DNA of 64,000 bases from Tepidimicrobium xylanilyticum (GTDB lineage: Bacteria > Bacillota > Clostridia > Tissierellales > Tepidimicrobiaceae), in contig NZ_FNNG01000002.1 in assembly GCF_900106765.1 (NCBI RefSeq), positions 124,001 through 188,000 on the forward strand. The letters are read 5' to 3'. The position numbers and the translations under genes were made by a program. This document shows, piece after piece, positions 2,289 through 21,586 of this stretch. The notes under the pieces are model-generated. The model saw only the letters and a list, made by a program, of their open reading frames with translations, did no database searches and had not been told where the DNA came from. Every line of letters starts with the position of its first letter. Within the stretch, counting starts at the first letter, position 1.

Positions 2289-3647
2289 TTATTTACTTTC
2301 CATAGCTTCTCTTTCTGCTTGTTCTTCTACAAGTGTTTTCTTTGGTAATACTATATTAAGAACAAACACTACTAAAGTTGCAAGTATTACTGGTGAACTT
2401 GCAAATACCATTGTAAACCATTCTGGTAAATATTGTAGTCCTTGTGCTGGAATTTGAGTAATTCCCATACCTAATGCTACTCCAAGTCCAACAATTGTTG
2501 TGTTTCTTACTGACAATTCATCTTGTACTATTAATTTCATGCCTGACATAGTAATTTGAGCAAAAACGGATATTGTTGCCCCTCCAATAACACATTGAGG
2601 AATAGAAGTCATAAATGCACCAAATTTAGGGATAAAACCAGCTATCAATATCATAACAGCTGTTAGCCTAAATACCTTCAAGCTTACTACTTTTGTCATT
2701 GCAACAATACCAACATTTTGACTGTATGTAGCTGTTGGCAAACCGCCTATAATTGAACCAATAACACTTGTTATACCATTTCCTTTAATTCCACCTGAAA
2801 GCTCTTCGTCTGTAGCTTCCCTATCCATTCCTCCTACTGTAGTTCCAGACAAATCTCCAACTGCTTGAACTGCATTAACTACATACATAATTACCATACT
2901 GATTACTGCTGCTGATGGAAATTCTAATTTGAAAGGCATTATTGATGGCAAGTTAAACCATGAAGCTGAAGCTATAGATTCAAATGAAACTATACCAGCA
3001 AATAAGCTTGCTATATATCCAACAACTATACCGATCAATATAGCAGCAAGTTTTATATAGCCTTTACCAAACATATTACACACTAGTACTACTACAAGGG
3101 TTAGTAATGCTATACCCCAGTAAACTAATCCACCATATCTAGGGTCTGTTGGTTGAAAACCTCCAGCCATGTAGTTTACAGCAACTTTATATAGAGAAAG
3201 TCCTATAGTAAATACTACAGTTCCTGCCACCATTGGTGGAAAATACTTTCTTATCTTTTTGATAAATATACCAACTACATATGCTACAAGACCACCTACT
3301 AATTGAGAACCAAATATTGCTCCAATTCCATATCCATTGCCAATTGCTAAAATAGTAGGTATATAAGCAAAGCTTACACCAACAATCATTGGTAGCCTTG
3401 AGCCAACCCCTAATATGGGATAGGTTTGTAGAAGTGTTCCAATTGCTGCAATGAACATACTAGCTTGTACCAAAAGTATCTGTTGTTCTGTAGATAATCC
3501 CAATGCACCTGACAATACTAATGCAGGTAACACATTTCCAACTATCATCGCCAACAAGTGTTGAAGAGATAGTGGAGTTGTAGTTTTAATACTTGGATTT
3601 CCTTCCAAACTAAATACTGATGTATTAACAGATTTAACATTTTTCAT
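2289..3647 (-). CDS. NCS2-family purine (xanthine/urate) permease
   Basis: A 452-residue polytopic membrane protein of the nucleobase-ascorbate transporter family. The family signature Q-N-x-G-x4-T-K sits at residues 310-319 (Q310, N311, G313, T318, K319), and an acidic residue (D265) lies in the VGDLSG segment equivalent to transmembrane segment 8. Many hydrophobic segments cover the length. The Gln-containing signature and the location inside a purine-breakdown cluster favour xanthine or urate over uracil, but the substrate cannot be read from the sequence alone. The gene is preceded by a structured leader (3677-3771) and an AGGAGG ribosome site. Confidence 0.88.
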   Translation of the reverse strand: MKNVKSVNTSVFSLEGNPSIKTTTPLSLQHLLAMIVGNVLPALVLSGALGLSTEQQILLVQASMFIAAIGTLLQTYPILGVGSRLPMIVGVSFAYIPTILAIGNGYGIGAIFGSQLVGGLVAYVVGIFIKKIRKYFPPMVAGTVVFTIGLSLYKVAVNYMAGGFQPTDPRYGGLVYWGIALLTLVVVLVCNMFGKGYIKLAAILIGIVVGYIASLFAGIVSFESIASASWFNLPSIMPFKLEFPSAAVISMVIMYVVNAVQAVGDLSGTTVGGMDREATDEELSGGIKGNGITSVIGSIIGGLPTATYSQNVGIVAMTKVVSLKVFRLTAVMILIAGFIPKFGAFMTSIPQCVIGGATISVFAQITMSGMKLIVQDELSVRNTTIVGLGVALGMGITQIPAQGLQYLPEWFTMVFASSPVILATLVVFVLNIVLPKKTLVEEQAEREAMESK

Positions 3648-3772: not shown

Positions 3773-5104
3773 TTACATTAATGGCCATATCTTATTTGCT
3801 CTTTCCCTTGACTTTGCCAGCACTTCCTTTACATCAACTGGTAAGATTTCTCTATCCTTCATAACAAACTTACCATTGATAATTGTGTCATTAACAAGTC
3901 TTCCTGTCATCCCAAACAATGCATGGCCGAACCAGTTATCCTTATTCATTGGTGTCAATGGTATATAATCAACAGTTATTATATCTGCATAGGCACCCTT
4001 AGCTATGACTCCTAAATCCCTTTTAAAATATTTCCTAAGAATTTTAGGATTGTTATCAAATTGCATTATTTTAGTTTCATTGAAGCCTACTGTTGGATCA
4101 CACAGTTGATGGCTTTGTAGTATATTAGCAACCTTCATAGATTCAAACATATCATTGGTATAGGCATCTGTTCCAAGTCCTACTCTTAATCCTTGTTTAA
4201 TCATTGATACCACTGGTGGTGCTCCTACTGCATTGTTCATATTTGATTCAGGATTGTGTACAACGCTAGTATCAGTTTCCTTTAATATTTCAATTTCCCT
4301 TTGATTTATATGAACTCCATGAACAGCTATTGTATGTTCACCTAATATGCCAAAGTCATGAAGTCTTTCTACGACTCTTTTCCCATATTTTTTCAATGAA
4401 TCATATTGGTCTTGTATTCCTTCAGCAACGTGAATGTGGTAGCCATCATAAACCCCTTCCATTGCTTCTCTTACCTTGTACAATGTTTCATTAGAAAGTG
4501 TAAAGGATGCATGAAGCCCAAATAGCCCTTTTATCATATCGCCATTGTCATCTTTTTGAGTCTCCTTTATAAAATTGATATTTTCTTTAATTTCTTTTAA
4601 TGTTATTTCTTTTCCATCTCTGTCGGATACTTCATAACAGAGAGAGGTCCTTATACCTAATTCCTTAGCTGCTTCAGCTATGGCAAATAAACTTCCTGTT
4701 ACTGAATTAGGTCCAGAATGGTGGTCTATTAGTGTAGTCACACCATTTTGGATTGATTCAATATAAGTTGTCAATGCATTTAGCTTTACATCTTCCAATG
4801 TAAGCTTTCTGTCCAGATTCCACCATAGATTTTCCAGAATCTCAAAGAAGTTTCGCTGGGGCTTTGCAACAAACATACCCCTAGCATAAGCACTATATAT
4901 GTGGCTATGTGCACATATCATTCCTGGCATTATTACTTTACCATTTACATCTATTACTTCCTCTTCAGGATAAGCTTTTTTGAGTTCCTCAAAGCCGCCT
5001 ACATCCTCTATGATATTGTCTCTAATAAAAACTGCTCCATTTTCTATAAAGGTATTATTTGAGTCATTAGTTATTACCATACCATTTCCTATAATCATAG
5101 TCAT
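3773..5104 (-). CDS. ssnA: SsnA-type aminohydrolase (purine deaminase-like)
   Basis: A 443-residue amidohydrolase-superfamily protein closest to SsnA, related to chlorohydrolases and guanine deaminases. Residues H66-x-H68 in the AHSHIYSAYARG motif, histidines in GYHIHVAEG and AVHGVH, and the aspartate in GLGTDAYTND give the mononuclear metal site of the deaminase branch. Two in-frame ATGs (5104 and 5098) compete; the second has better spacing from AAAGGGG. Its gene starts 8 bp after the carbamate kinase stop. In reported gut-bacterial purine clusters ssnA is a core member; its exact substrate is still an inference. Confidence 0.88.
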   Translation of the reverse strand: MTMIIGNGMVITNDSNNTFIENGAVFIRDNIIEDVGGFEELKKAYPEEEVIDVNGKVIMPGMICAHSHIYSAYARGMFVAKPQRNFFEILENLWWNLDRKLTLEDVKLNALTTYIESIQNGVTTLIDHHSGPNSVTGSLFAIAEAAKELGIRTSLCYEVSDRDGKEITLKEIKENINFIKETQKDDNGDMIKGLFGLHASFTLSNETLYKVREAMEGVYDGYHIHVAEGIQDQYDSLKKYGKRVVERLHDFGILGEHTIAVHGVHINQREIEILKETDTSVVHNPESNMNNAVGAPPVVSMIKQGLRVGLGTDAYTNDMFESMKVANILQSHQLCDPTVGFNETKIMQFDNNPKILRKYFKRDLGVIAKGAYADIITVDYIPLTPMNKDNWFGHALFGMTGRLVNDTIINGKFVMKDREILPVDVKEVLAKSRERANKIWPLM

Positions 5105-5111
5105 TACCCCT

Positions 5112-6047
5112 TTATTTAGAAATTATCCATGTTCCAGTCTTACCTGCCAATCCATCAGTTGCCTTTTCTAATGATGTAATAAGCGCTTTTCTTCCTGGTT
5201 TTGATGTGACAAAGCTCATGGCAGCTTTCACCTTTGGCAGCATAGAACCTTCAGCGAACTCCTTATCATCTATATATTTTTGAACTTCTTCGATTGTAAG
5301 CTTATCTAGCCATTGTTGATCTGGTTTTCCAAATCTAATTGCTACCTTCTCAACTGCAGTCAATATTATTAGACTATCTGCATCTACTAACTCAGCTAAT
5401 TTAGCTGTAGTAAAATCCTTATCTATTACTGCTGGTACTCCAACTAGATTTCCATCTTCTTCAACAACAGGTATTCCACCGCCACCAGCAGCTATTACAA
5501 CATTTTCAGCATCAACAAGAGCTTTAACAGATTCTTTTTCTACTATATCCTTTGGTTCTGGTGATGGAACTACTCTTCTGTATCCTCTTCCAGCGTCTTC
5601 TTTAAATACGAAGCCCTTTTCTATCATCTTATCTGCTTCTTCCTTGGTATAGAATGCGCCTACAGGCTTTGTTGGATTTTGGAATGCTGGGTCATTTTTA
5701 TCTACTACAACTTGCGTTACAACTGTTGCAACAGGAATATTTAATCCTCTGCTTCTCAATTCGTTTTGAATAGCATTCTGTAGGTGGAAGCCAATATACC
5801 CTTGACTCATGGCTCCACACTCAGGGAATGGCATTTCTGGAGTCCCTGCATCTGTCTTTGCTGCTGCATCCATGGCTAAGTTAATCATACCTACCTGTGG
5901 TCCATTACCATGGGATATAATAACCTGATTCCCTGCTTCTATTAAATCAACTATTGATTTAGATGTATGTTTTACTGCTTCTTTTTGTGATTCTGGGTCA
6001 TTTCCTAAAGCATTTCCACCCAATGCGATTACTACTTTCCTTTTCAT
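5112..6047 (-). CDS. arcC: Carbamate kinase
   Basis: A 311-residue amino-acid-kinase-fold enzyme (E. coli YqeA counterpart) making ATP, ammonia and CO2 from carbamoyl phosphate and ADP. It shows ALGGNAL at the N-terminus, HGNGPQVG, the AAGGGGIPV loop and DKDFTTAKLA, all typical of carbamate kinase. I prefer the ATG at 6047 over an in-frame ATG at 6068, because AAAGGAG sits 8 nt before it and the protein then begins MKRKVVIALGG as the family does. It is the likely energy-yielding step of the pathway, downstream of the carbamoyltransferase-like YgeW. Confidence 0.93.
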   Translation of the reverse strand: MKRKVVIALGGNALGNDPESQKEAVKHTSKSIVDLIEAGNQVIISHGNGPQVGMINLAMDAAAKTDAGTPEMPFPECGAMSQGYIGFHLQNAIQNELRSRGLNIPVATVVTQVVVDKNDPAFQNPTKPVGAFYTKEEADKMIEKGFVFKEDAGRGYRRVVPSPEPKDIVEKESVKALVDAENVVIAAGGGGIPVVEEDGNLVGVPAVIDKDFTTAKLAELVDADSLIILTAVEKVAIRFGKPDQQWLDKLTIEEVQKYIDDKEFAEGSMLPKVKAAMSFVTSKPGRKALITSLEKATDGLAGKTGTWIISK

Positions 6048-6093
6048 TGCTGCTTCTCCTTTACTCATATAATTTTTTTAATTATCTTATCAA

Positions 6094-7806
6094 CTAATAA
6101 ATAATATAAGAATAATCTTTTATTATTGTTTCAAGTAATACTTGGATTTTTTCTTTCTCATCATCAGATTTGTTAAAATCAGGTTCATATTCATATACAT
6201 TTTTCTTTTCATCTCTTATTTTGTATTTATTTTCCCCAATTTTAACAAAGCCTGGATTCTTTGAGCTTTCAAAATCCTCAACAGTTGAATATAATGTTGG
6301 CTTTTTAAAATATGGATACCCGCCTCTTGTACAGAATAGATGGCAGTTTCCACACTCATTACATCTATCCTCTATGTGAAGTATTTGGTATGGCGCTTCA
6401 AAATGTTTATCTTCAACCTTTATATTGGCTCTGTTTGGACAAACATCTACGCAGATTCCACAGTTCTTCTTAAAGCAATCAAATGTTGGTAGTGTATCCT
6501 CCAATAGTTTGCCTTCGCCTTTATTCCTGTAGTTACTATCTGTTTTAGCATATTCAGCTAATTCTTTTATAGCATCTACATTTAGCTTTCCAAATTCAAT
6601 ATCTTCATTAATAAGTTGATCTATTATTCCATTTGTATTAATATATCCTCTTGGTTTTAGAAGGATTGTAGAGAATGTTACAGGTGCTATACCTGCCTTA
6701 AGAACACTTATTACATTGTTTCTATCGATTCCTGCTGAGAAGGATATGTTAATATCGCCATCAAAAGCCTCTGCAAACGTTTTAGAAACGTTAATAGCAA
6801 TTGGATACAGAGGTTTTCCAGACATGTACATACTTTCTCCAGTTAAATATCCTTTTGCATTATATACAGCTAGAGTATTTGTAAGCTTAACTCCAACATT
6901 TAAACCATTCTCTTTTCCTAGTTTCTTCAATTTTGTAAATATTTCAACTGCATTGTCAAATTGTAGGTCGTTGTCAAAGCCTTCTCTTTTTAGTACTATA
7001 TCATTATACCCTAGCTCATCTAAGATCTTTCTAACATTGTCATATCCTAAAAGTGTTGGATTACATTTTACATAGGTGTTCATCTTCTTATCAACTATTA
7101 AGTGTGATGCTATATCAAATATTTCTTCAGGTTTAGCACCATGCATAGTTGACAGTGTAACTGTATTAGTTATATGAGGTGTTATCTTTTCTATGTCCTC
7201 TAGTTTAAACTTTTTAAATTTATTTATGTTCTTCTTCAATACTTCAATACATTCTTTATATATTTCTGTGTTCGAAGCATCCTTTAAGTCATCAATGAAA
7301 TCTGAAATCTTCTTTGATGTAATTCCCTTAAGGTCATATCCTACGCTTATGTTTATTACAAAATCTTTTACATCAGACAGTCCTAATTCAATTGCAAAAA
7401 CTTGCAATAATATTGATGCTTTAATGTATTCTTCTTTTGCTTCTTCTACTGTTAGTTCTGTAGACCATTCAACATTGTATCCTGCATTTTTAGCATCAAT
7501 ACATGGCCTTGGAATCATCTTCATCATTTCTCTTCCATCTACTACTTGAACAGTCTTAACTTCAAAAAATCTAGATCCTGTCAAGTACGCAGTTAAAATA
7601 TTCTGACAAAGTTGAGTATGAGGTCCAGCTGCTGGTCCTATAGGAAATCTTAAGTATTCACCGTTATAATTCATGGAAAGGTTTTCATTATTCCCTCTAA
7701 AAAAATATTTTTCATCAATTTCCATTATTTTCCCCTTTGTATAGTAGTCATTTAGGCAAATATCAATCATGTTTTCAAATGGGATTACCCTCATTAATTC
7801 TGTCAT
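6094..7806 (-). CDS. ygfK: YgfK-like putative reductase lacking the pyridine-nucleotide domain
   Basis: A 570-residue protein matching the ends but not the middle of YgfK (E. coli YgfK is about 1030 residues). Residues 1-430 are the dihydroorotate-dehydrogenase-like part (FPIGPAAGPHTQL near 54-66). They pass straight into a two-cluster ferredoxin module with C444, C449, C452, C456 and C482, C485, C488, C492. The GltD-like FAD/NADPH region normally between them is absent, with no sign of a frameshift. The family is called 'putative selenate reductase' but in this cluster probably works in purine reduction. Electrons must come from a separate partner. It lies between ygeY and carbamate kinase. 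Confidence 0.85.
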   Translation of the reverse strand: MTELMRVIPFENMIDICLNDYYTKGKIMEIDEKYFFRGNNENLSMNYNGEYLRFPIGPAAGPHTQLCQNILTAYLTGSRFFEVKTVQVVDGREMMKMIPRPCIDAKNAGYNVEWSTELTVEEAKEEYIKASILLQVFAIELGLSDVKDFVINISVGYDLKGITSKKISDFIDDLKDASNTEIYKECIEVLKKNINKFKKFKLEDIEKITPHITNTVTLSTMHGAKPEEIFDIASHLIVDKKMNTYVKCNPTLLGYDNVRKILDELGYNDIVLKREGFDNDLQFDNAVEIFTKLKKLGKENGLNVGVKLTNTLAVYNAKGYLTGESMYMSGKPLYPIAINVSKTFAEAFDGDINISFSAGIDRNNVISVLKAGIAPVTFSTILLKPRGYINTNGIIDQLINEDIEFGKLNVDAIKELAEYAKTDSNYRNKGEGKLLEDTLPTFDCFKKNCGICVDVCPNRANIKVEDKHFEAPYQILHIEDRCNECGNCHLFCTRGGYPYFKKPTLYSTVEDFESSKNPGFVKIGENKYKIRDEKKNVYEYEPDFNKSDDEKEKIQVLLETIIKDYSYIIY

Positions 7807-7908: not shown

Positions 7909-9225
7909 CTATTTATTTTCAACATAAACTGTTGGTAAAGCAGCGTAAACTGCAGCGCATCTTACTAAGTCTGCTTTCCAAGTTTTTTCATTTGGAGCAT
8001 GAGCTTGTGCTTCAGCACCAGGACCAAATCCTATACATGGTATTCCATTTCTTCCCATAATTGAAACTCCATTTGTTGAAAATGTCCATTTATCAATTAA
8101 TGGACGAGCCTTCCTCATTTCTTCAGTTTCTTCTGTTCCTACACGTGTTGTTCCGTAAAGGTTTGTATATGCTTCTTTCATTGCTTTTGTTACTGGATGA
8201 TCTTCTGGTATAACCCAAGTTGGGAAGTAGCATTCAATTGGATATACTAATCCTGTATAGCTTGGTCTCGCATATTCATACATGTTTACTTTTGCATTGT
8301 ATTTCTTTACAGCTGGAAGCTGACGAATTTCTTCTAAGCAGCTTTCCCAAGTTTCACCTGCTGTCATACGACGGTCTAGTGAAATTGAGCAGGAGTCTGC
8401 TACTGCACAACGGCTTGGTGATGTAAAGAAGATTTCTGATACTGTAATAGTACCACGTCCTAAGAAACGTGCTTCTTTCCATTGTGGATTGTATTTTTCA
8501 TCTAACATCTTAACTAATCCTTTTATTTCATTTTCATCAGAAGCATCATTCTCGTTAAGGTCACGAATATTTTGTACAATTTCAGCCATCTTATAAATAG
8601 CATTGTCTCCTCTTTCTGGAGCTGAACCATGGCATGAAACTCCTTCTACATCAACACGAATCTCCATACGTCCACGTTGTCCTCTATAGATTCCACCATC
8701 TGTAGGCTCTGTAGAAACTACGAATTCTGGTCTGATTTTACATTCTTTTATTATATATTCCCAGCAAAGTCCATCGCAGTCTTCTTCTTGTATTGTTCCA
8801 GTTACCAATACCTGGTATTTGTCATTTAAAAGACCTAGGTCTTTCATTATTTTAGCTCCGTAAACAGAACTGACTATTCCACCTAATTGGTCACTAGTTC
8901 CACGTCCACCAATTTCAGTTTCATTTTCATACCCTTCATATGGATCAAATTCCCAAATGTCTCTATTTCCTATGCCTACTGTATCAATGTGAGCATCAAA
9001 TGCAATTAGAGTTTCTCCTGTTCCCATGTATCCTAAAACATTTCCCATTGGGTCAATTTCAACTTTGTCAAATCCAACTGCTCTCATTTCTTCTGCAATA
9101 CGTTCAACAACACCTTTTTCTCCGCAGCTTTCTCCAGGAATACGAACTAAATCCCTTAAGAATTTAGTCATATCCTTTTCATATCCTTGAGCCGCTTCTT
9201 TGATCTTAGCAAAATCTAGAACCAT
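7909..9225 (-). CDS. ygeY: YgeY-type M20 family metallohydrolase
   Basis: A 438-residue peptidase-M20/deacylase-fold protein matching the selenium-cluster-associated YgeY family. Di-zinc ligands are visible: H79 and D81 in DAHIDTVG, D112 in [10 protein letters not shown], the E147-E148 pair in TIQEED and a late histidine in [11 protein letters not shown]. Likely a cytoplasmic hydrolase of an amide or ureido intermediate; the family substrate is not settled. Gene starts 21 bp after the ygeW stop, behind a GGAGGGAT ribosome site, indicating co-transcription. Confidence 0.9.
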
Positions 9226-9246: not shown

Positions 9247-10443
9247 TTATCTAACTAATCTGGCTTTATTTCGGTCTAATAATTTTTGTAGTGTTTCCAC
9301 TGGATTCTTAACTTTTTGTAAGAATATCATAGCTGCTATAATGTATGGTTTGTAGCTTGCTTCTTTGTATAGTGGTATTCTATATCTATCAAATATTGAT
9401 TCGTCAACTTCTCCTTCTTCACAGCTTAATCTAGTTATATCAGCTGGTAAGCAGTGCATGTATAGAGCCTTTCCATCTTTAGTAATCTTCATCATTTCTT
9501 CAGTACATGCCCAGTCTTTGTGTTGTGCATTTTGAGCTAATAATTCTTGTTCTAATATATCAATTTCATCAAATTTGCCTTCTCCATAAAGTTGAGTTCT
9601 CTTTTCCATTGCTGCAAATGGGGCCCAGCTCTTTGGATATACGATGTCTGCATCCTTAAATGCTTCTTCCATTGAATTTATCTTAGTGAATTTTCCACCG
9701 TATTTTTCTGCATTCTTTCTAGCTACTTCTTCTACTTCTGACATTACCTCATATCCTTCTGGATGCGCAAGTACTACGTCCATTCCAAATCTTGTCATAA
9801 GTCCAATAATTCCTTGTGGTACTGAAAGTGGTTTACCATAGGATGGTGAATATGCCCAAGTCATAGCAATTTTCTTTCCTTTAAGGTTTTCAACTCCACC
9901 AAATTCATGAATTATATGAAGCATATCTGACATTGTTTGTGTTGGATGATCAATGTCACATTGTAGGTTTACTATAGTTGGTCTTTGTTCAAGAACACCG
10001 TCTTGGTATCCTTCATTTACATATTCAGCAACAGCTTTTTGATAAGTATGTCCCTTCCCAATGTACATGTCATCACGAATACCAATAACATCTGCCATGA
10101 AGGAAATCATGTTTGCAGTTTCCTTTACAGTTTCTCCGCGAGCAATTTGTGATTTTGCTTCATCTAGATCTTGAACTTCTAATCCTAGTAGGTTACAAGC
10201 TGATGCAAATGAGAATCTGGTTCTTGTAGAGTTATCTCTAAATATTGAAATTCCTAGTCCTGAATCAAATATTTTTGGGCTTATGTTGTTTTCTCTTAAA
10301 TGTCTTAGAGCATCTGCAACTGTAAAGATTGCATGTAACTCATCTTGTGTTTTGTCCCAAGTTAATAAAAAGTCATTATGGTATAAGTTTTTGTAATCTA
10401 ATTTTTCAAGTTTTGCTAATAGTTCTTTAAAGTTTGTGTTCAT
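9247..10443 (-). CDS. ygeW: YgeW-type knotted carbamoyltransferase
   Basis: A 398-residue member of the aspartate/ornithine carbamoyltransferase superfamily. The carbamoyl-phosphate loop STRTR is at residues 72-76 and the second signature HCLPAD is near residue 333. YgeW proteins form a distinct branch with no assigned amino-acid acceptor. Beside carbamate kinase and diaminopropionate lyase, the enzyme most plausibly runs backwards, splitting a carbamoylated intermediate to carbamoyl phosphate that the kinase converts to ATP. The fold call is firm; the reaction direction is inference. Confidence 0.9.
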   Translation of the reverse strand: MNTNFKELLAKLEKLDYKNLYHNDFLLTWDKTQDELHAIFTVADALRHLRENNISPKIFDSGLGISIFRDNSTRTRFSFASACNLLGLEVQDLDEAKSQIARGETVKETANMISFMADVIGIRDDMYIGKGHTYQKAVAEYVNEGYQDGVLEQRPTIVNLQCDIDHPTQTMSDMLHIIHEFGGVENLKGKKIAMTWAYSPSYGKPLSVPQGIIGLMTRFGMDVVLAHPEGYEVMSEVEEVARKNAEKYGGKFTKINSMEEAFKDADIVYPKSWAPFAAMEKRTQLYGEGKFDEIDILEQELLAQNAQHKDWACTEEMMKITKDGKALYMHCLPADITRLSCEEGEVDESIFDRYRIPLYKEASYKPYIIAAMIFLQKVKNPVETLQKLLDRNKARLVR

Positions 10444-10486: not shown

Positions 10487-11695
10487 TTATTTATTTTGAT
10501 ACAATCCATTCCATACTACATCTCTATAATGTTCAAAATCAGTGTCTCCTTCTGTACTGAAACAAAGAACAACTGAATTTTCATCAAGTTTTAATGCTTC
10601 TTTTATGTCCTTTAGTTCTTCTAATGACATAACTTGTGAAACAACTCCCATTGTTGCAGCTCCACTTTCACCTGATATAATTCTTTCATCACCTTTTAAT
10701 GGATTACCTAATACTCTCATACCATGTGCAGCTACTTCATCTGGAACTGATAGGAAGTTTTCAGCATACGCATTAAGAACTGGCCATCCAATTGTAACTG
10801 GCTCACCACAAGCAAGACCAGCCATTATAGTATTCATATCTCCCTTTACTGGATGAAGCTCGCCATCATCAGCCTTTGCTGTCTTGTATAAGCATGCAGC
10901 TTTGTCAGGTTCAACTATTGTAATAATTGGCTTGTTGTCACTGTAAACTGAACTAAAGAAACCAGTAACCGCTGATGCAAGTGATCCTACTCCAGCTTGA
11001 AGGAAAATATGTGTAGGTCTTACATTTTGTTCTTCCATCTTTAGATATGCTTCATATGCCATTGTAATATAGCCTTGCATAATCCAAGTTGGTATATCTT
11101 CATAGCCATCCCATGAAGTATCTTGAATCATTACATAACCATATTTTTCAGCTTCTTCATTAGCTTGTCTTACACAATCATCATAGTTCTTGTCTAGTAC
11201 TTCACATTTTGCACCAAGGGCTCTTATATTTTCCACTCTTTCTTGAACACTTCCCTTAGGCATGTAAACAATTGCTTTTTGTTTTAATTGATTAGCTGTC
11301 CAAGCAACTCCTCTACCATGGTTACCATCTGTTGCTGTGATGAATGTTATTTCGCCTAGTTGTTCTTTTATTTCATCTGATATTAAAGTTCTATACTGAA
11401 GTTCATCAAGGCTCTTGCCTAATTTATTTGCAATATATTGGCCAATTGCAAAACTTCCACCTAATACTTTAAATGCATTTAAACCAAATCTATAGGACTC
11501 ATCTTTAACAAATATATTTTTAAGTCCTAAATACTTTGCAAGTTCCTTTAATTCCACCAATGGTGTTTCGCTATATTGGTCGAAACTTGAGTGGTATTTA
11601 ATAGTTTGCTTTGCAACATCTTCACTCAAAAAGTCTAATGATACTTTCTCTCTTTTTGAAGTATCGTTTTTAACTATCTGATATTTAACAGTCAT
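10487..11695 (-). CDS. ygeX: Diaminopropionate ammonia-lyase
   Basis: A 402-residue fold-type II pyridoxal-phosphate enzyme converting 2,3-diaminopropionate to pyruvate and two ammonia. The Schiff-base lysine is K76 in GLNAFKVLGG, and a glycine-rich phosphate loop and the GESGAATMG segment follow. Length is the family norm. It is the first structural gene after the sigma-54-like promoter, so pyruvate and ammonia would be end products of purine ring fragments. A GGAAGG site lies 8 nt before the ATG. Confidence 0.93.
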   Translation of the reverse strand: MTVKYQIVKNDTSKREKVSLDFLSEDVAKQTIKYHSSFDQYSETPLVELKELAKYLGLKNIFVKDESYRFGLNAFKVLGGSFAIGQYIANKLGKSLDELQYRTLISDEIKEQLGEITFITATDGNHGRGVAWTANQLKQKAIVYMPKGSVQERVENIRALGAKCEVLDKNYDDCVRQANEEAEKYGYVMIQDTSWDGYEDIPTWIMQGYITMAYEAYLKMEEQNVRPTHIFLQAGVGSLASAVTGFFSSVYSDNKPIITIVEPDKAACLYKTAKADDGELHPVKGDMNTIMAGLACGEPVTIGWPVLNAYAENFLSVPDEVAAHGMRVLGNPLKGDERIISGESGAATMGVVSQVMSLEELKDIKEALKLDENSVVLCFSTEGDTDFEHYRDVVWNGLYQNK

Positions 11696-11736: not shown

Positions 11737-11754
11737 TTACATAAACCGTGCCAA
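11737..11754 (-). promoter_or_regulatory. Sigma-54-type promoter of the ygeX operon
   Basis: The minus strand reads TTGGCACGGTTTATGTAA. TGGCACG is a perfect -24 element, and four bases later ATGTA is a weaker -12 element (consensus TTGCA; the second half of the GC pair is T). The ATG of ygeX starts about 40 bases downstream, giving a 5' leader of about 30 nt. The sigma-54 activator gene lies directly upstream, which supports the assignment. Confidence 0.75.
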
Positions 11755-11877
11755 CTTTTAATGCTTATCTAAAACAACTTTTTTATCAACGATTGTTAAT
11801 TTTCCTTGAAATTTCAACGTTTCACATAAAAGAAGATTTTTGGACTTTACGTACTTTTTACACAAAAATTTACTATT

Positions 11878-11892
11878 TTATCGTTTTGATAA
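11878..11892. promoter_or_regulatory. Activator-site dyad 1 (TTATCG-N3-TGATAA)
   Basis: One of three copies of a dyad in the ygeV-ygeX gap. This copy has one mismatch in the left half-site (TTATCG instead of TTATCA). Its centre is about 140 bp upstream of the sigma-54 promoter, the distance expected of an enhancer-binding site. Confidence 0.55.
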
Positions 11893-11896
11893 TTTT

Positions 11897-11911
11897 TTAT
11901 CATAATGATAA
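11897..11911. promoter_or_regulatory. Activator-site dyad 2 (TTATCA-N3-TGATAA)
   Basis: A perfect TTATCA-TAA-TGATAA dyad; the palindrome extends one base on each side (11896-11912). Its centre is 19 bp from dyad 1, just under two helical turns, so two dimers could bind the same DNA face. Confidence 0.65.
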
Positions 11912-11962
11912 AGCTAGGTAAGGCTGTATTTTCCAATGTTTGAGGGAAAATTAATTCTTTTT

Positions 11963-11977
11963 TTATCATTTTGATAA
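11963..11977. promoter_or_regulatory. Activator-site dyad 3 (TTATCA-N3-TGATAA)
   Basis: A perfect TTATCA-TTT-TGATAA dyad, centred 66 bp from dyad 2 and about 225 bp from the sigma-54 promoter. It lies closest to the regulator's 3' end. A lone TTATCA half-site also occurs at 11783-11788. The rest of 11755-12067 is AT-rich with no gene. Confidence 0.65.
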
Positions 11978-12067
11978 CATTTTCACAGATATTTGTTATT
12001 TTTTCTTTTTTTTCTAAAAAAATATTTTTTAGAAAAATTTTTTATTTTTAAATTTTATGCATAAAAG

Positions 12068-12094
12068 AAAGCTAAACAACTTATGTTTAGCTTT
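12068..12094 (-). terminator. Terminator of the sigma-54 regulator gene
   Basis: Arms AAAGCTAAAC (12068-12077) and GTTTAGCTTT (12085-12094) pair perfectly around a 7-nt loop, with a CTTTT stretch after it on the minus strand. It overlaps the regulator's stop codon and separates it from the ygeX operon. Confidence 0.75.
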
Positions 12095-13820
12095 ATAATT
12101 TCCTATATAAAGTTGCTATTCCTATGCCTAAAGCTCTAGCTGCCTGCTTTTTCCCTTCTGTTGTATCTCCATAATAGGCTATTGCCTTTCTTATTTCTTC
12201 CTGTTCTATTTCCTTTAGAGTCCTTATGCCTTGCTGATTTTCATATCCCATAAGATCATTGTTTCTTATATTTGAAGGCAAGGTATTGTCGTTTACAATT
12301 CCGTCTTCCATCATATTGACTATGAATTCTACTGTATTTTCTAATTCCCTAACATTACCAGGCCATGGGTAATTCATAAGCTTTTCCATAGTCTCTTCTT
12401 CTATTCGTACAAAGTTCTTGCCAAAGAGCTTTCTATAGTAGTCGATAAAATGGTATATTAAATCTCTTATATCTTCTTTTCTTTCCCTCAAAGGAGCAAT
12501 CTCTATGGGGATTACGTTTAATCTATAGTATAGGTCTTCACGGAACTTGTTTTCATTTATCATTTGCCTTAAGTCTTTATTTGTTGCAGCTATAATTCTC
12601 ACATCCAATGGTATTTGCTGATTTGAACCTATTCTTACAATCTTTTTATTCTGAATCACCCTTAAAAGCTTCGATTGAAGATATAGGGGCATGTCCCCAA
12701 TTTCGTCTAAAAATATAACTCCCTTATTAGCTAGTTCAAATTTTCCTATTTTTCCATTAGGATCTGCGCCTGTAAAAGCACCTTTTACATATCCAAACAA
12801 CTCACTTTCTAGTAAAGGTTCAGGTATAGCTGCACAGTTTATAGCTACAAACCTATTGTTTCTCCTATCTGAATTCTTCCATATTGCTGTAGCAACAACT
12901 TCCTTACCAGTCCCACTTTCACCAGTTATCAGCACTGTTGAAACTGAATTTGCCACTTTTTTAATTTTTTCTTTAAGCTCTATAGTCTTTTTACTACATC
13001 CTATTATATCGTCTGTATCTACTGCATTGACGGTTGATGTCATGGCATATATACTTGAATGAACCTTGTCCAAATTTCTAAATAGTAATACCTGCTTGTA
13101 GAATTCATTCTTAGGTACATCAAATATATCTCCTATTACTGTGCTTACATTTTCTCCAATTCTCACCTTATACTCCTTGCTGTTATTAACTGTATCTCCC
13201 GTAGGCTCTATTTCAATCTGTTCATTGTTGATTATCCTCGTAATACCTAACTGCTTTTTAGCACTTGCGTTAATGATGGAGACATTACCCTCATTGTTTA
13301 TGATAATAGCTCCCTCATCCATTCTCCTTACTATTAGCTCCATCATGTTTGTAATAGCTGCCTTGCTCTTTGCCTCCTCTACCTCATACGCCTTTGTAGC
13401 GATAAAGTCGGCTATCTGTTCTAGAAAATCCAAATAGCTCTCTAAGTTGTTCAATATAACCTTTTTTCTGTCCTCTGTAGTGCAAGCCATGCCTATTACT
13501 CCTATAATTTCATCCTTTATCTTGATAGGCATTGAAATTTCAAATATCCCTTTGCACTCTTCCTTCTTTATACAGTCCTTGCACCTTTCATCTACTCTAG
13601 GCTCCAGCAGAACTTGTCTTTCTCCGGTCCTCATTGCATATTTATAAACATTTGAGTTCTCTGACACATCTACATTCACTCTACTAAATATGCCTGTACC
13701 AGCAATTCTTACTAGTTTAGAATCTACAACTTCAACATCTACCTTAGCTATTTCTGAAGTAATCTTTGCATATTTTTGAACTGTATCAGCAATATTATTC
13801 AACTCATACATAGCCTTCAC
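12093..13820 (-). CDS. ygeV: Sigma-54-dependent activator of the purine cluster (YgeV-like)
   Basis: A 575-residue enhancer-binding protein. Residues 1-150 form a GAF-like sensor ending in a cysteine group C80-x2-C83-x5-C89. A PAS-like segment follows (about 160-250), then the AAA+ domain: Walker A GESGTGKE 300-307, the sigma-54 contact loop GAFTGA 347-352 and Walker B VIFLDEIGD about 368-376. A Fis-type helix-turn-helix closes the chain (KKQAARALGIGIATLYRKL). It stands directly upstream of the sigma-54-like promoter and dyad array, so it very likely activates ygeX onward in response to a purine or redox signal. The ligand is unknown. Confidence 0.9.
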   Translation of the reverse strand: MKAMYELNNIADTVQKYAKITSEIAKVDVEVVDSKLVRIAGTGIFSRVNVDVSENSNVYKYAMRTGERQVLLEPRVDERCKDCIKKEECKGIFEISMPIKIKDEIIGVIGMACTTEDRKKVILNNLESYLDFLEQIADFIATKAYEVEEAKSKAAITNMMELIVRRMDEGAIIINNEGNVSIINASAKKQLGITRIINNEQIEIEPTGDTVNNSKEYKVRIGENVSTVIGDIFDVPKNEFYKQVLLFRNLDKVHSSIYAMTSTVNAVDTDDIIGCSKKTIELKEKIKKVANSVSTVLITGESGTGKEVVATAIWKNSDRRNNRFVAINCAAIPEPLLESELFGYVKGAFTGADPNGKIGKFELANKGVIFLDEIGDMPLYLQSKLLRVIQNKKIVRIGSNQQIPLDVRIIAATNKDLRQMINENKFREDLYYRLNVIPIEIAPLRERKEDIRDLIYHFIDYYRKLFGKNFVRIEEETMEKLMNYPWPGNVRELENTVEFIVNMMEDGIVNDNTLPSNIRNNDLMGYENQQGIRTLKEIEQEEIRKAIAYYGDTTEGKKQAARALGIGIATLYRKL

Positions 13821-20485: not shown

Positions 20486-21586
20486 TTAATAGAAAGCAAA
20501 AGGTGGACTGCTTTTATCGTGCAAATATATTTCTACTTTATTTTCTAGTATTTTATCTAAATAATCCTTTATAATTGGGAGTATCACCTTTTCAGTGTGA
20601 TAATGACCTGCATCTACAAGGGTAAGCCCTAATTCATTAGCATACTGGGCATCATGGTATTTAACATCTCCAGTAATATATAAATCTGCACCTCTTTTAT
20701 AGGCATCATAGATAAAAGAAGCACCACTTCCTCCACATACTGCTACCCTTTCAACGATCCTATTTCGGTTTCCATAAACTATTACTCTATCAACCTCTAA
20801 ACTTCTTTTAATGATATCCAAATAATCTAATAGAGCCATTTCCTTTATACTGCCTATTCTACCATACCCATAAGCTTTACCTTCATTTTTTAATGGGTAT
20901 ATATCATAGGCTACTTCTTCATAGGGATGATGCCTTATCATCTCTTTTAATACTTCATCTAAATTATTGTCTTCAACAATGGTTTCGATTCTAACTTCTT
21001 CAACTTCCTCTAATTCATAAACTTTTCCGATAAAAGGTTTAGTCCCCCTTAAAGGCAAAAAGGTTCCCATACCTTCAACATTATAGGTACAATGGCTGTA
21101 GTTTCCAATCCAACCAGCACCCATATCACCTAAAACTTTTCTTATAATAGGTGCATAATCTTTTGGAACGAATACCACTAATTTATATAAGGGATCTCGA
21201 TAATTAACCCTTAAAGGCTCATGATTTTTGATCCCCAATGTATTGGCTAAAGCATCATTTACGCCACCTGGTACCAAATCCAAATTAGTATGTGCATTGT
21301 ATACAACTAAGTCTTCCTTAATTATATCATAGATCAAACTTTCCTTATATGATTCTTTGGTTATTCTGGACAAGGATTTGAATATAATAGGGTGATGGGT
21401 AACTATCATTTGGACTTTTTTATTCATGGCTTCCAAGAAAACCTCTCGGTCCAAATCCAAGGATATTAATATTTTTGAAACCTCCCTTTCAGGGTCACCT
21501 ATCTGAAAGCCAGTATTATCCCATTTATCGATTAAATAAGGAAAAGCCCATTGATCTAATAGCTTAATTATATCTATTGCCTTCAA
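20486..21586 (-). CDS. Nif3-like dinuclear metal centre protein
   Basis: A 366-residue member of the Nif3/YqfO/YbgI family with the insert found in longer Firmicute versions. Metal ligands are in VTHHPIIF (N-terminal), NAHTNLD, and the late DAGHYHTE motif. Hexameric rings are known for the family; reported roles vary and the substrate is unsettled. The start overlaps the trmK 3' end by 23 bp, showing translational coupling. Confidence 0.92.
   Translation of the reverse strand: MKAIDIIKLLDQWAFPYLIDKWDNTGFQIGDPEREVSKILISLDLDREVFLEAMNKKVQMIVTHHPIIFKSLSRITKESYKESLIYDIIKEDLVVYNAHTNLDLVPGGVNDALANTLGIKNHEPLRVNYRDPLYKLVVFVPKDYAPIIRKVLGDMGAGWIGNYSHCTYNVEGMGTFLPLRGTKPFIGKVYELEEVEEVRIETIVEDNNLDEVLKEMIRHHPYEEVAYDIYPLKNEGKAYGYGRIGSIKEMALLDYLDIIKRSLEVDRVIVYGNRNRIVERVAVCGGSGASFIYDAYKRGADLYITGDVKYHDAQYANELGLTLVDAGHYHTEKVILPIIKDYLDKILENKVEIYLHDKSSPPFAFY

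Follow-up and report, generated by a model that had tools for sequence, protein, structure and literature searches.

The dyad array, its promoter and its operon

Three copies of the dyad TTATCA-N3-TGATAA lie in the gap that separates ygeX (10487–11695, minus strand) from the 3′ end of a sigma-54 activator gene (12093–13820, minus strand) in Tepidimicrobium xylanilyticum, raising the question of whether they are the sites from which this activator switches on ygeX. A preliminary description of the window, i.e. the whole 64,000-nucleotide stretch analysed, had reported dyad centres at 11885, 11904 and 11970, two of them perfect and one with a single mismatch, and all of these positions were confirmed. 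The predicted distal activator site (11963–11977) is the perfect dyad TTATCATTTTGATAA, centred on 11970. The other two sites form a close pair, consisting of the perfect dyad TTATCATAATGATAA at 11897–11911 (centre 11904) and the promoter-proximal copy at 11878–11892 (centre 11885), which reads TTATCGTTTTGATAA on the plus strand and carries the one mismatch. The first pair member is 66 bp from the distal site and 19 bp from its partner.

A sigma-54-type promoter, TTGGCACGGTTTATGTA, was found at 11738–11754 on the minus strand, with the GG of its −24 element at 11751–11752, and begins 59 bp ahead of the ygeX start codon. This agrees with the −24/−12 promoter that had been proposed for ygeX; measured from the −24 GG, the dyad centres lie 133, 152 and 218 bp further upstream, close to the 140–225 bp given earlier. 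The −24 region is nearly identical to that of the published Clostridioides difficile dpaL2 promoter TTGGCACGGTAATTGCTTT, and sigma-54 is encoded in the T. xylanilyticum genome. The −12 element is TGT instead of the usual TGC, and the promoter may therefore be weak.

At one mismatch or fewer, the window contains five dyads against 0.74 expected, a number reached by none of 100 dinucleotide shuffles; two of the five are outside the array, one within the permease gene (3251) and one at 20589, and both are regarded as chance matches. In the whole genome (3.0 Mb), 33 dyads were found at this threshold, and the only two perfect ones are both in the array, 66 bp apart. A Poisson model predicts approximately 4e-5 clusters of three dyads within 100 bp genome-wide. 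When two mismatches are allowed, the window as a whole is ordinary (18 dyads versus 12.6 expected, no enrichment), indicating that the signal is carried by the tight cluster. The gap also contains a perfect inverted repeat with 13-bp arms made up of A and T only (TTTTTCTAAAAAA/TTTTTTAGAAAAA, 12009–12037), located between the activator gene and the array.

Downstream of the promoter, nine genes follow one another on the minus strand with short gaps. The first is ygeX (dpaL), encoding diaminopropionate ammonia-lyase (TIGR03528), followed by genes for the knotted carbamoyltransferase YgeW (9247–10443, TIGR03316), the M20-family hydrolase YgeY (7909–9225, TIGR03526), a short YgfK-like reductase of 570 aa (6094–7806; TIGR03315, 610.6 bits, under the cut-off of 835.3), an ArcC-like carbamate kinase (5112–6068, TIGR00746), the amidohydrolase SsnA (3773–5104, NF005540), a xanthine/uracil-family permease (2289–3647, PF00860), a HyuA-like dihydropyrimidinase/hydantoinase (821–2194, PF01979 together with operon context) and the start of an xdh-type molybdenum hydroxylase (2–775), which is homologous to the Fe-S domains of the E. 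coli XdhC type and runs past the window edge. Together, these are the genes known for the reductive uric acid pathway (PMC12507026).

Several members of this operon and their relatives show additional features. The YgfK-like protein matches mainly positions 2–447 of a 1012-position model, and homologous ygfK at loci L119 and L162 reads in two parts with approximately 1.2 kb between them; together, these findings suggest that a middle module is missing from YgfK of the window. YgeY is 438 aa long versus 395 positions in the family model, with approximately 40 extra residues inside the match. The same genome carries a second ygeX-like gene (G000:C1:21558-22754, L115; 54% identity) with no dyad nearby, as well as a broken fragment of a third (G000:C19:497-799).

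The activator gene, dioR/ygeV, encodes a Sigma54_activat AAA+ domain with the GAFTGA loop and a C-terminal Fis-type HTH (LGIGIATLYRKL; PF02954, 22.8 bits versus a cut-off of 22), bearing out the earlier view that a sigma-54 enhancer-binding protein is encoded across the gap. The protein is a homologue of E. coli YgeV and was assigned to the DioR type of clostridia from its gene context and targets, not from a comparison with C. difficile sequences. Its N-terminal part has GAF and PAS matches in Pfam, both weak, and no receiver domain was seen, while E. coli YgeV has been termed an orphan response regulator (PMC9426417). The N-terminal sensor part (13086–13820, minus strand) contains a cysteine cluster, CKDCIKKEEC, partly kept in E. 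coli YgeV as CEGCDSKENC, which could serve in metal binding or redox sensing. A terminator-like hairpin at the dioR end (12068–12094, minus strand; one found versus 0.1 expected) separates dioR from the array and the operon.

Recurrence and layout of the array in clostridial genomes

To survey other genomes without regard to gene content, a pair of perfect dyads 17–23 bp apart was used as the query and the reversed pattern as the control. Perfect pairs were detected in 16 of 249 genomes of the order (one pair each), in three of 391 genomes of a class sample (seven pairs, up to three per genome) and in 14 of 147 genomes of one further family, and the reversed pattern was absent from each set. 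In total, there were 38 perfect pairs in 30 of approximately 750 distinct clostridial genomes, which are relatives and not fully independent of one another, against zero in the reversed control. The same regulator type is present in all 30 pair-bearing genomes and usually adjoins the array. The preliminary description had called for a motif search upstream of ygeX homologues and had named a lack of conservation at orthologous clusters as a refutation; genomes that carry this regulator type do retain the dyad ahead of such clusters.

Within the order, all 16 pairs adjoin a DioR orthologue (48–78% identity), 15 are followed by a strict −24/−12 match, and 13 have ygeX directly downstream. In the further family, full-length DioR was found in all 14 pair-bearing genomes, and the arrays precede ygeX, ssnA, xdhA, hyuA or the gene after dioR. 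The arrays are located approximately 55–380 bp upstream of sigma-54 promoters, mostly at 120–280 bp. In two DioR-positive genomes that the pair search had not picked up, dyads are present immediately behind dioR, with a sigma-54 site beyond them. A scan of the genome collection with ygeX gave six true homologues; the portion of upstream sequence inspected contained no dyad for any of them, and DioR was absent from the stretch of flanking sequence covered. At one locus (L067, 5737–5920, genome G197), a one-mismatch dyad and a minus-strand sigma-54 site are present a short distance upstream of dioR and hint at a target that is transcribed divergently.

The arrays have a consistent architecture. 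Among 50 arrays compiled from the searched loci, 45 contain three sites, and the spacing of the close pair is 18 bp in 23 arrays, 19 bp in 22, 20 bp in three and 21 bp in two. The third site, which played no part in the search criteria, is mostly 63–72 bp from the pair (mode 69, range 52–169). The close pair is promoter-proximal in most arrays, including that of the window, and distal in some (L075 and L076). The dyad arms are nearly invariant, partly as a consequence of the selection rule of at most one mismatch, and the central three bases and the flanking sequence are just AT-rich. The helical phasing of the sites across the arrays followed no simple rule, and no simple placement on one face was apparent.

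The presence of the array was also compared with that of the regulator in 61 screened relatives, 12 of which have a full-length regulator, defined by an N-terminus match of >115 bits. The array is present in 10 of these 12 genomes. The other two (L112 in G046 and L113 in G058) also contain three sites, with spacings of 68 and 20 bp, although of the TTGTCA-N3-TGACAA type, and the recognition helix of their regulators is LGIGLSTLYRKM versus LGIG[IV]ATLYRK elsewhere. Judged by these sequences, the two regulators represent a DioR subtype in which the dyad differs together with the helix while the spacing stays. In four ygeX-positive genomes with a distant N-terminus match or none, no array was found next to ygeX. 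The association between DioR and the array gave a Fisher p value of 0.0005 when the variant motif was included and 0.008 without it. This co-variation of dyad and helix is the best sequence evidence for the inference that DioR reads this dyad.

Proposed mode of action and alternative explanations

On this basis, the three dyads most probably represent upstream activator sites, i.e. a bacterial enhancer, from which the adjacent DioR/YgeV activator would switch on the ygeX operon; we assign this reading, including the mechanism that follows, a probability of approximately 0.93. The same interpretation had been offered in the preliminary description, and it is supported by the position, spacing and gene neighbourhood of the sites, all of which fit an adjacent sigma-54 activator. 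Each TTATCA-N3-TGATAA dyad would be occupied by a DioR dimer, with the Fis-type HTH at the C-terminus making the contact, and the 19-bp pair and the third site 66 bp off would hold three dimers together, thereby favouring the assembly of an AAA+ hexamer. DNA looping would then carry the hexamer to the sigma-54 RNA polymerase at 11738–11754, where ATP hydrolysis would open the ygeX promoter. One long operon, ygeX-ygeW-ygeY-ygfK-arcC-ssnA-permease-hyuA-xdh, would thus be turned on for reductive uric acid/purine breakdown. What the N-terminal domain senses is presumably a purine, urate or an intermediate of the pathway, a guess made from the target genes.

The dyads might instead be operators of another regulator acting in the same gap, such as a repressor or a global nitrogen, iron or redox factor. 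Although short AT-rich palindromes are a common operator shape, we regard this explanation as improbable, because DioR is the common factor in all 30 genomes with perfect pairs, including those in which other purine operons, distant from dioR, carry arrays, and because a changed DioR recognition helix is accompanied by a changed dyad. In addition, the usual distance between array and promoter is typical for activator rather than repressor sites. The known boxes of two global factors, Fur (TGATAAT-N-ATTATCA) and FNR (TTGAT-N4-ATCAA), differ from the dyad in their arms or in their spacing.

The paired changes in the two dyad arms are likewise compatible with an RNA stem, and the dyads of the window are located downstream of the dioR stop, so that RNA hairpins acting as terminators or attenuators after dioR have to be considered as well. 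However, the stems would comprise six AT-rich base pairs closed by a 3-base loop, dioR has its own terminator-like hairpin right after it (12068–12094), and some arrays stand in divergent intergenic gaps or at operons that are not next to dioR, in each case close to a sigma-54 site. This explanation is very unlikely and was rejected on these grounds. Chance clustering in AT-rich DNA, which would be in line with the unremarkable count of the window at two mismatches, is the least credible of the alternatives: the only two perfect copies in the genome are 66 bp apart, and the array turns up at the equivalent position in dozens of genomes, with the reversed-pattern controls giving zero. It was rejected by the shuffles, the whole-genome counts, these controls and the comparative data.

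Relationship to the DioR, NorR and E. coli YgeV systems

The closest known system is the DioR regulon. According to Nie 2019 (PMC6615313), a UAS motif and a regulon had already been predicted for the DioR group, with dpaL (= ygeX), ygeW-ygfK-ssnA-ygeY, pbuX, yqeB and others as targets; in most groups, several UASs were found per target, mostly 100–250 bp upstream of a −24/−12 promoter. In C. difficile, DioR1 and DioR2 have been linked to sigma-54 promoters at dpaL1, dpaL2, tdcF and pbuX, and dpaL2 expression in a sigL mutant is down to 0.3 of normal (PMC7438776). DioR was still labelled as uncharacterised in 2024 (PMC11448449). The window shares with this regulon a Fis-type sigma-54 activator with GAFTGA beside dpaL, the targets dpaL, ygeW, ygfK, ssnA and ygeY, and xdh-linked genes, and its dyad distances of 133, 152 and 218 bp are within the DioR range of 100–250 bp. 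The likeness established here is one of regulator, targets and UAS distance.

Because a DioR motif and regulon had been predicted in 2019, the remark in the preliminary description that no binding site has been defined for YgeV-type regulators was too strong for clostridia; for E. coli YgeV, no published site was found in the literature searched. The clostridial part of our results is thus best described as a probable new instance of the predicted regulon, to which a clear three-site layout, absent from the text of Nie 2019 consulted, is added. It provides a concrete candidate binding site and layout for the activator of anaerobic uric acid/purine breakdown, a pathway that is now attracting attention in connection with gut bacteria and gout.

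A precedent for such a layout is the E. coli NorR-norVW enhancer, in which three palindromic sites are all essential and scaffold a hexamer (PMC2941729). What the two have in common is a set of three palindromic sites ahead of a single sigma-54 promoter, as in 45 of the 50 DioR arrays; the motif, inducer and spacing differ from those of DioR. Hexamer scaffolding is proposed for DioR by analogy with NorR.

The comparison with E. coli YgeV (IsrR in EHEC, PMC9426417) extends the dyad beyond clostridia. The regulator of the window is 38% identical to YgeV over its whole length, and the recognition helix GIGIATLYRK is identical in the two proteins. In K-12 (NC_000913.3, L104/L155), five dyads with at most two mismatches are present in four gaps totalling 1.7 kb: TTATCACATTGATTT in the xdhA gap (3000102), ATATCAATATGAGAA and TTATCAAACTGAAGA in the ygeW gap (3005941 and 3005970), a perfect TTATCATAATGATAA in the ygfK gap (3015789) and again ATATCAATATGAGAA in the ygfT/uacT gap (3031159). 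Only 0.095 dyads are expected in these gaps from a background estimated on 37 kb around the K-12 purine genes (Poisson p ~6e-8), and none of 1000 Markov shuffles had a dyad in all four. Sigma-54 ChIP-seq sites are known upstream of exactly xdhA, ygeW, ygfK and ygfT (PMC4591121), and the operons of these four promoters form the YgeV iModulon (PMC12132413). By arithmetic on the two coordinate sets, the dyad centres are upstream of the ChIP sites by approximately 126 bp at xdhA, 208 and 179 bp at ygeW, 176 bp at ygfK and approximately 187 bp at ygfT/uacT.

E. coli and the window share the pathway genes and dyads at sigma-54 promoters; E. coli differs in that one of its dyads is perfect and four have two mismatches, in that ygeV is divergent from ygeW, and in that the three-site spacing (69 and 19 bp) was not kept in the YgeV-group gaps. 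The extension of the dyad to YgeV promoters appears to be new. We consider it on balance probable, from these sequence comparisons, that TTATCA-N3-TGATAA is the ancestral operator of the entire DioR/YgeV family from Clostridia to E. coli, that YgeV acts directly at xdhA, ygeW, ygfK and ygfT/uacT, and that the fixed clostridial layout of approximately 69 and 19 bp assembles a hexamer. Four binding regions are thereby predicted for E. coli YgeV at promoters with known sigma-54 occupancy, and the matching dyads at these promoters are the part of this analysis most worth testing.
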